Positions 5,541-7,375 of a DNA stretch of 36,234 bases are shown here, piece by piece. How positions within the stretch are numbered: the stretch's first letter is position 1; every line of letters begins with the position of its first letter. The DNA is from Actinomycetes bacterium. Its GTDB lineage: Bacteria; Actinomycetota; Acidimicrobiia; Acidimicrobiales; UBA8190. The stretch covers positions 1-36,234 of the forward strand of contig JAKAYQ010000009.1 of the NCBI GenBank assembly GCA_021826725.1, given 5' to 3'. The position numbers and the translations under genes are program-made. A model generated the notes under the pieces. That model made no database searches, was not told the origin of the DNA, and saw nothing but the letters and a program-made list of their open reading frames with translations.

Positions 5541-7337
5541 TCACCCGAGGTGCAGTGCTCGGACCAAGAAGAACGTCGCGGGGAGCACGAAGAACAGGGC
5601 GTCGAACCGGTCGAGGAGCCCACCGTGCCCTGGCAGCACGGTCCCCATGTCCTTGACACCGATCTCGCGCTTGATCAGGGATTCACACAAGTCGCCCAGC
5701 GGTGCCACCACGGCCACGATGGCGCCGAGCACCGCGGCGGTGCCCGGCGTCCAGGGGTGGACGTGCCCGGTGACGAAGATGGAGACCACCAGGGTCAGCA
5801 CAGCACCGCCGGCCGCGCCCTCCCAGGTCTTGTTGGGGCTGACGCCAGGTGCCAAGGGGTGTCGACCGAGCCAGGCACCGATGGCGAGCGCCCCGATGTC
5901 GTTCGCCACCACGGCGGCGATGGCCCCGAAGATGAAGGCGACGCCATGGCGGTTGGGGAAGAGCCCGGGGGCCAGCAGCAGCGAAGCGAACGACCCGAGC
6001 AGCCCCACCCACGCGAAGGCCATGACCGTCGCGCCGATGCCGTCGATGGGCGACCCGCGGCCGATACGGAACAGATACCACAGCATCGTCGTGATCACCA
6101 CCAGCACGGTCACCAGTGGCAGCGCACCAACGCCCCTGTCGTAGGCCGCCACCATGATGGCGACGGTGCCGACCAGACCTACCAGCGTGGCTGGGCGGTG
6201 GCCCGCCTTGTGCAGCGCGCCGTACAGCTCGGCCGCGGCGGCGACCACCACCACAGTCACCAGGATCATCACGTAACGCGGTCCCGCCGCCATGCTGGCC
6301 AGGGCGACGACAGCGAAGACGAGCCCGGTGCCGATGGCCATCGGCACGCTCCGCCGGCTCGGCTCGCCTTCGGCGACCGCCACCGGAGGCTCCCCTGTCC
6401 GAGATGCAGTCCGGGATTCGCCTGCTGGCCGTGCGCGGCCCCTCCGGGCCGCGCCACCACGGCTTCGCGCCGAGCGCCGGACGGCGGGCGCAGAACCACG
6501 CCCGACCGGGTTGCCGGACCGGTCATCGCCACCCGGAGCGAGGTCCGCGGCGGAACCGGTACCCGCACCGGTACGTGCCGGAGCCGGGTCGAGGGAGGTC
6601 GTCGCCGGGAGCGGATCGCCGGGACTGCTGTCGCCGGGCACGGCCGTCCCCTGGCCATCACCGGCAAGCCCCGACGGCGCACCGCTCCATCCGGCGCCGG
6701 GCTCCGGCGCATCGGAGGACCCGGTGATCCCCACCTCGTCCCATGCCCCGGCGGGCTCGTCGGCCTCGTCCCAGGACGGATCGAGATCGTCGTGGCCGGA
6801 GCCGAGGGCTCCTACCCGGGTTCCCTCGTCCGCCAGCAGCGACGGCTCGAACGACACGTCCTCCCACTCGTGCGGATGCTCACGCCACGCCGGCCCCCCC
6901 CCGAGCACGGCCGACCACGGGTCGTCGGGGTCACCGGCCCGGTCCAAGATGGCTGGCACCTGACCCGTGGGCGGGTCGGTCCAGTGCGGCATGTCGGGAG
7001 CCGTGAGCCGGCCCCCACCGGCCTCCGTGTCGCCGCCGCCAGCCCCGATCGGCTGCCCGCTGCCCACCTCGTCGAGATCCCCCTGGATCGCCGCCGGAGG
7101 CTGCTCCACCCACACGGCGTCGGCGCCGAGCCTCACCGCTGCCGCCCCCTGGACGCGGCCCACCGCCGCTCCGGCGTCCACCGGCTCACGCGGCTCGTCG
7201 CCGGCCGGCGCACCGCCGGCGAGGGCCTCGACGGCAGGCTGGGCCCCGACGATCCGAACCCGCTCGGTCACGGGATATTCGACGGGCACCGTTGCAGCGC
7301 CGGTCGTTTCGCGGTCCTCGACCTCGTGGTCGTCCAC
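5541..7337 (-). CDS. cdsA: Phosphatidate cytidylyltransferase with a long N-terminal extension
   Basis: Integral membrane enzyme that makes CDP-diacylglycerol from phosphatidic acid and CTP, the branch point of phospholipid synthesis. The C-terminal 270 residues carry several hydrophobic helices and the CdsA signature: SPNKTWEG, then KREIGVKDMG and LPGHGGLLDRFD. The remaining ~325 N-terminal residues are predicted soluble, acidic at first, then Pro/Gly/Arg-rich. They contain an aromatic patch, PHWTDPPTGQVPAIL, that looks like a constrained motif rather than filler. The GTG at 7337 is preceded by AGGAGG with a 4-5 nt spacer, so the extension appears genuinely translated. Family members are usually about 270-300 residues. 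It lies 38 bp downstream of frr in the same run. Confidence 0.93.
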   Translation of the reverse strand: MDDHEVEDRETTGAATVPVEYPVTERVRIVGAQPAVEALAGGAPAGDEPREPVDAGAAVGRVQGAAAVRLGADAVWVEQPPAAIQGDLDEVGSGQPIGAGGGDTEAGGGRLTAPDMPHWTDPPTGQVPAILDRAGDPDDPWSAVLGGGPAWREHPHEWEDVSFEPSLLADEGTRVGALGSGHDDLDPSWDEADEPAGAWDEVGITGSSDAPEPGAGWSGAPSGLAGDGQGTAVPGDSSPGDPLPATTSLDPAPARTGAGTGSAADLAPGGDDRSGNPVGRGSAPAVRRSARSRGGAARRGRARPAGESRTASRTGEPPVAVAEGEPSRRSVPMAIGTGLVFAVVALASMAAGPRYVMILVTVVVVAAAAELYGALHKAGHRPATLVGLVGTVAIMVAAYDRGVGALPLVTVLVVITTMLWYLFRIGRGSPIDGIGATVMAFAWVGLLGSFASLLLAPGLFPNRHGVAFIFGAIAAVVANDIGALAIGAWLGRHPLAPGVSPNKTWEGAAGGAVLTLVVSIFVTGHVHPWTPGTAAVLGAIVAVVAPLGDLCESLIKREIGVKDMGTVLPGHGGLLDRFDALFFVLPATFFLVRALHLG

Positions 7338-7375
7338 GTCGCCTCCTCGGTCGGCCGGATGAACCGGCCGACCCG

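Follow-up and report, generated by a model that had tools for sequence, protein, structure and literature searches.

The cdsA gene of the window (the whole stretch of 36,234 nucleotides that was analysed) encodes a predicted CDP-diacylglycerol synthase with a long N-terminal extension, which is confirmed as a real part of the CdsA protein and whose conserved segments probably serve to grip a partner or to regulate the enzyme. With moderate confidence, we read this extension from its sequence and from structure models as a disordered and probably cytoplasmic arm, whose short motifs would dock on a lineage-restricted partner that is specific to CdsA. The motifs are designated here blocks N, M and W, and the coordinates of all features are given in Table 1.

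Table 1. Coordinates of cdsA and of the features of its product in the window, with the Q block of related tails
Feature	Position	Strand	Remarks
cdsA with N-terminal extension	5541..7337	(-)	598 aa, GTG start, stop codon included
Ribosome-binding site GAGGAGG	7342..7348	(-)	4 nt upstream of GTG, direct reading
N block TERVRIVGAQPA, residues 24-35	7233..7268	(-)	E25, V27, G31, A32 and A35 at least 90% conserved in 24 full-length relatives
M block MPHWTDPPTGQVPAI, residues 116-130	6948..6992	(-)	Conserved across relatives
W block, residues 141-178, with W141, P149, W151, R152	6804..6917	(-)	Alignment of relatives
Low-complexity acidic linker, residues 179-282	6492..6803	(-)	Composition; dN/dS of residues 179-325 is 0.34-0.74
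Arg-rich juxtamembrane stretch, residues 283-330	6348..6491	(-)	Composition, 25% Arg
CdsA membrane domain, residues 331-598	5544..6347	(-)	PF01148, TmCdsA sequence and fold, AlphaFold helices
Q block	L185:2293-2478 and 28 further rows of alignment A5		Conserved tail block

CdsA is commonly treated as a bare membrane enzyme, and its product, CDP-diacylglycerol, is the branch point of bacterial phospholipid synthesis. In the window protein the family PF01148 (CTP_transf_1) was matched over residues 335-593 with an E-value of 9.2e-53, covering profile positions 4-262 of 264. Residues 553-579 (SLIKREIGVKDMGTVLPGHGGLLDRFD) carry S-x-x-K-R-x4-K-D...P-G-H-G-G-x-x-D-R-x-D, which we take to be the CDS signature and used for the assignment of CdsA, and the top four Foldseek matches of the domain are chains of 4q2g and 4q2e, the structures of Thermotoga maritima CdsA (TmCdsA). 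The NCBIfam CdsA equivalog PRK11624 (NF008635) gave 89.5 bits, below its curated cut-off of 385 bits, and the protein lies inside the superfamily and outside this equivalog. By family membership it is an ordinary CdsA, that is, a predicted CDP-diacylglycerol synthase. The gene is flanked by frr and dxr frames, both recognised by eye, with a gap of 38 nt between its GTG and the end of the frr frame (7376). A neighbour scan of related loci with crude patterns found an frr-like signature at 56 of 76 and a dxr-like one at 37 of 68, from which no conclusion is drawn.

Since the first membrane helix of the model begins at residue 331, about 330 residues precede it, and the extension of some 325 residues that the initial annotation had described does more than double CdsA. 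Within its acidic background rich in G, A, P and D lies PHWTDPPTGQVPAI (residues 117-130), which had been singled out as an apparently constrained aromatic motif. This proved correct. When the window tail was compared with the first 200 residues of a distant relative (L052), the best ungapped 14-mer was identical at 11 of 14 positions, against a maximum of 8 of 14 in 100 shuffles of the same comparison. Moreover, a search with a 127-residue tail segment in 31 genomes, our own included, matched 29 at E <= 10 and 27 at E <= 0.002; the two genomes that gave no match to this segment (G018 and G027) are matched by profile A1 at 2.9e-16 and 1.1e-5. The agreement with L052 beyond all shuffles, together with the 27 genomes, indicates that the conservation of M is more than chance. 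In 28 aligned blocks W5, G11, P35 and W37 are invariant and nine further columns are at least 90% conserved. The consensus of M is LPHWT[DE]PPTG[QE]VP and that of W is WSxxxxGPxWRE...EW, in which, among the 24 full-length relatives, P149 and W151 are invariant and W141 and R152 at least 90% conserved. The outcome that would have refuted the initial annotation, a motif not conserved in orthologues, did not occur. The expectation that conservation would be confined to the WTDPPTG segment was thus borne out for the motif itself and failed for the remainder, because N and W, two blocks that the initial annotation had not noticed, are conserved as well in close relatives. One tail (L024) has two extra WTDP-containing repeats (GASWTDPRREEPAAGSWTDPRASEP) upstream of the N block.

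Substitution rates were estimated by simple counting on small numbers of codons. The nearest relative, L036, is 88% identical; in this pair no nonsynonymous difference falls in the M block, and the dN/dS values are 0.05 (W block), 0.09 (membrane domain), 0.34-0.49 (linkers) and 0.86 (N block, on three differences only). In the comparisons with L038, L039 and L041 dN/dS spans 0.20-0.24 in the W block, 0.24-0.36 in the membrane domain and 0.41-0.85 in the linkers, and is 0.12, 0.23 and 0.10, respectively, in the N block; the M block has 0.05 with L039 and 0.04 with L041, and its value with L038 is undefined because dS is saturated. From these pairwise values M is clearly the most constrained part of the tail, and W and N are constrained about as much as the membrane domain or more strongly in most pairs.

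We also read 102 CdsA tails of the class that were not selected for the motif, of which 57 have M, 31 have a different block that we call Q, 13 have neither and one (L248) is truncated at the end of its contig; M and Q never occur together. These tails come from 96 of the 123 class genomes with a CdsA hit (129 searched) and from six added genomes (G194, G206, G212, G267, G258 and G020). Since the latter were picked for having no clear A1 match, the sample is biased against M. The 123 genomes also include 21 of the 24 members of family f36, two with fragments (G131, G138) and four in which the signature search gave no frame (G052, G111, G069, G018), all of them left unread. Strict patterns recognised 56 M tails, to which L226 (PHWGDPPTGQLP), labelled 'none' on the membrane-domain tree, was added. 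The strict patterns for N and W were found in 26 and 25 of the 57, respectively, and since this is under half, N, M and W together are not a feature of the whole class. A loose W pattern (P-x-[WF]-[RQKAS] at most 75 residues after M) was present in 41 of the 57 M tails versus 5 of the 31 Q tails. By these patterns N and W are common companions of M that form no fixed set with it.

In the genomes searched the motif is also limited to one gene. A degenerate M pattern gave exactly one match in each of 52 class genomes out of 198, whereas the reversed control matched in one of 198, and all 52 matches fall inside the A1 hits of cdsA tails (coordinates compared by eye). Second copies of the motif, as would be expected of a shared docking tag, were rejected on the ground that each positive genome has a single pattern match, always in cdsA. 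A 63-residue query in our own genome returned cdsA and two further loci (L034 and L035, E 0.05-0.08), judged spurious from their translations. Profile A1 had hits at E <= 1 in 133 of 247 class genomes, a figure that includes weak chance matches. In a scan of the genomes of 84,980 species, 233 stretches with the pattern were found, 163 of them encoding A1 relatives, and 80 of these were kept for inspection. The motif lies in an open frame in all 80, as the search demanded, and the CdsA signature is in the same frame in 73; some of the seven stretches that lack it are at contig ends. Their titles are mostly Acidimicrobiia, Acidimicrobiales or unspecified actinobacteria, and the few that read Acidobacteriota or Bifidobacterium breve are probably misnamed.

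No CdsA carrying M was seen outside the class, in searches that weak or diverged motifs could escape. A search of 296 genomes of the phylum, including at least 27 class members, matched 42 at E <= 0.1; 23 of these belong to the class, and the 19 outside it gave E-values of 0.002-0.09. Seven of these 19 outside loci were examined (L162, L164, L165 and L167-L170) and the CdsA signature was found in none; one of the seven reads, by eye, like an aldehyde dehydrogenase (NPATGEVIATL). We also inspected 25 CdsA loci of the phylum that belong to families outside the class. Four of them, all from family f69 (L193, L197, L201 and L203), have long tails with plausible starts, with DLFEDLDKFFAPIxDVDW at the beginning and, preceding the first membrane helix, GPSWQEPTAVEVG, which recalls, as a resemblance only, the GPxWRE of the W block. 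The remaining 21 look short, their longer upstream frames being Arg-rich and, by reading, apparently non-coding. A single CdsA-like gene is present in 120 of the 123 class genomes with a hit, and two or three are present in some genomes outside the class, such as G294 and G308 (family f72).

The Q block is about 50 residues long and immediately precedes the first membrane helix of CdsA, with the consensus FxxxxYxxxTTxEYxGLAExI...QAVAAxxPGVExGxVGFEDV (29 rows, alignment A5). Twenty-seven of the 31 Q tails were recognised by pattern and four by eye (L181, L269, L286 and L296). In 129 genomes the Q profile gave 31 strong hits (E <= 7.4e-20), one per genome and 29 of them rows from which the profile was built; the next hit had an E-value of 0.003. 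Six short matches of Q to PDB entries, the best to a designed protein (4D2, E 0.00064) and to a receptor fusion (E 0.0053), were judged to be chance. On a quick tree of the membrane domains, where many forks stayed unresolved and some branches are long, Q occupies one side of a branch (SH-aLRT 99) and M needs four or five changes. Among the 13 tails with neither M nor Q, L175 has N and W and two rows of family f24 have W, while four rows of family f35 and L171 have no N, M, W or Q block. L177 (family f37) and L183 (family f40) carry the Trp-rich stretches HWRDRPEDWEAESQAWEEITAEW and GWRDDPEHWESEEETWKEITAEW, respectively, which perhaps represent a variant of the W block. The last three of the 13 are sampled CdsA proteins of family f36, from genomes of about 1 Mb, whose tails have only about 37 residues, so that the enzyme itself can do without the tail.

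We are therefore inclined to view the tail as a probably cytoplasmic arm on the CDP-diacylglycerol synthase that would display short linear motifs through flexible linkers, M being the core motif that N and W join in many relatives. These motifs would most probably dock on a folded partner that belongs to the lineage and is specific to CdsA, much as the initial annotation had considered when it suggested that the extension may anchor partners, and the partner could place CdsA or link it with envelope growth or with the step that follows in phospholipid synthesis. Motifs that recruit a partner fit the data because near-invariant islands stand in a tail that is predicted to be disordered, with one Trp-Pro-rich peptide per genome, on CdsA only, and because M gives way to another block, Q, in a sister clade and is absent from some small genomes. 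With less assurance, and at somewhat under an even chance, we suggest that the CDP-diacylglycerol synthase of the class is a spatial or regulatory hub, the mutually exclusive M and Q tails of sister lineages binding different, undescribed partners specific to CdsA.

The probable placement of the arm is inferred from the topology of the enzyme. The catalytic loops of CdsA are on the cytoplasmic side. Residues 1-325 are without a hydrophobic segment (best 19-residue Kyte-Doolittle mean 0.84) and residues 1-282 are acidic, with a net charge of -38. The tail should be cytoplasmic, because this is the side reached by counting back from those loops through nine helices, and because an Arg-rich stretch precedes the first helix; nine is the number given for TmCdsA in PMC7018664. 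In AlphaFold models of the window protein and of L088 (53 and 35 sequences) the confidence of the membrane domain is mostly above 90; for the tail, averages over ten residues range from 36 to 62 in the window protein, counted up to residue 320, and from 43 to 64 in L088. No Pfam or NCBIfam family was found at E <= 1 for the window tail (residues 1-325) and two of three orthologous tails, and the third (L041) gave nothing but matches well short of the cut-offs (E 0.16-0.48). Searches of the M/W block against the PDB at E 10 and of the tail segment against plasmids gave no match. Given its low AlphaFold confidence, the tail is best read as an intrinsically disordered arm.

The same models bear on the possibility that the motifs fold onto the cytoplasmic face of CdsA itself, in cis or on a dimer mate, and gate the access of CTP or phosphatidate. 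TmCdsA is a dimer, as stated in PMC7018664, and in the genomes searched the M motif was found on CdsA only, which makes CdsA an obvious possible ligand. The two monomer models, however, contain no globular tail domain and place no tail block on the enzyme with confidence, although single chains cannot reveal partners and low confidence is compatible with docking in cis. Moreover, the CdsA domains of the Q-type and short-tailed proteins keep the enzyme signature without M. We therefore regard such autoregulation as unlikely, if the most serious of the alternatives to a separate partner.

A phosphorylation switch is more doubtful still. Here a Ser/Thr kinase would modify Thr124 of the PPTG sequence, and either a phosphothreonine-binding protein would read it or CdsA would be toggled. 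Position 124 is T in 56 and S in one of the 57 M tails, and T in 26 and S in two of the 28 A1 rows. The T was not part of the search pattern, as W and G were for 55 of the 57 tails; W is present in all 57. This tally comprises the 58 pattern rows minus L182, L283 and L291, chance matches in Q-type tails, plus L173 and L174 ('HW only'). Nevertheless W119 and G125 are conserved equally to T124, which would fit a structural role, and the literature on the kinase motif and on CdsA in phosphoproteomes gave nothing useful.

That the whole tail is a drifting low-complexity extension, neutral or purely entropic, is very improbable: the linkers between the conserved islands are indeed of low complexity, variable in length and weakly constrained, but M is conserved far beyond them and across many families of the class. 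The ribosome-binding site claimed for the start is as good as described, similar sites precede the orthologues, and in 27 of the 28 loci of relatives a start codon with a GGAG, GAGG, AGGA or AAGG site could be chosen by eye before the N block. We can hardly give any credit to an annotation artefact, in which translation would start near residue 325 and the upstream frame would stay untranslated, for although internal starts exist (GTG 319, GTG 331 and ATG 333, some with GGAG upstream), the frame and its start with a ribosome-binding site are kept across relatives, the tail blocks have synonymous but few nonsynonymous changes, and a start there would lose blocks under selection.

Near-invariant tail motifs over many families of an understudied class suggest a lineage-specific grip on, or regulation of, the CDP-diacylglycerol step. 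If CdsA is the hub proposed above, this would be a wiring of phospholipid synthesis that is not known from model bacteria. M and Q offer two defined peptide baits for finding the factor that grips or regulates the enzyme.

In the literature searched, which included few subscription papers, no description of a bacterial CdsA tail was found, and the tailed CdsA is apparently an undescribed variant of a known enzyme. Among solved structures, TmCdsA is the nearest to its membrane domain in sequence (phmmer E 1e-16) as well as in fold (Foldseek E 7.5e-9, TM-score 0.78-0.80 on the target), whereas TmCdsA has no comparable tail, its crystallised chain being only 290 residues long. The Q-type CdsA of other families of the class, such as L185, shares with the window CdsA an acidic tail with a conserved block; it differs in that Q directly adjoins the first helix and M is absent. 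The closest known parallel, likened by description only, is the CDS of Plasmodium (Shastri et al. 2010, cited in PMC7018664), which likewise has a long N-terminal extension that is reported to be essential and, taken as a whole, weakly conserved. It is, however, an enzyme of a eukaryotic parasite, and according to PMC7018664 a cleaved 28 kDa fragment of it is said to leave the parasite, which sets it apart from the bacterial tail.
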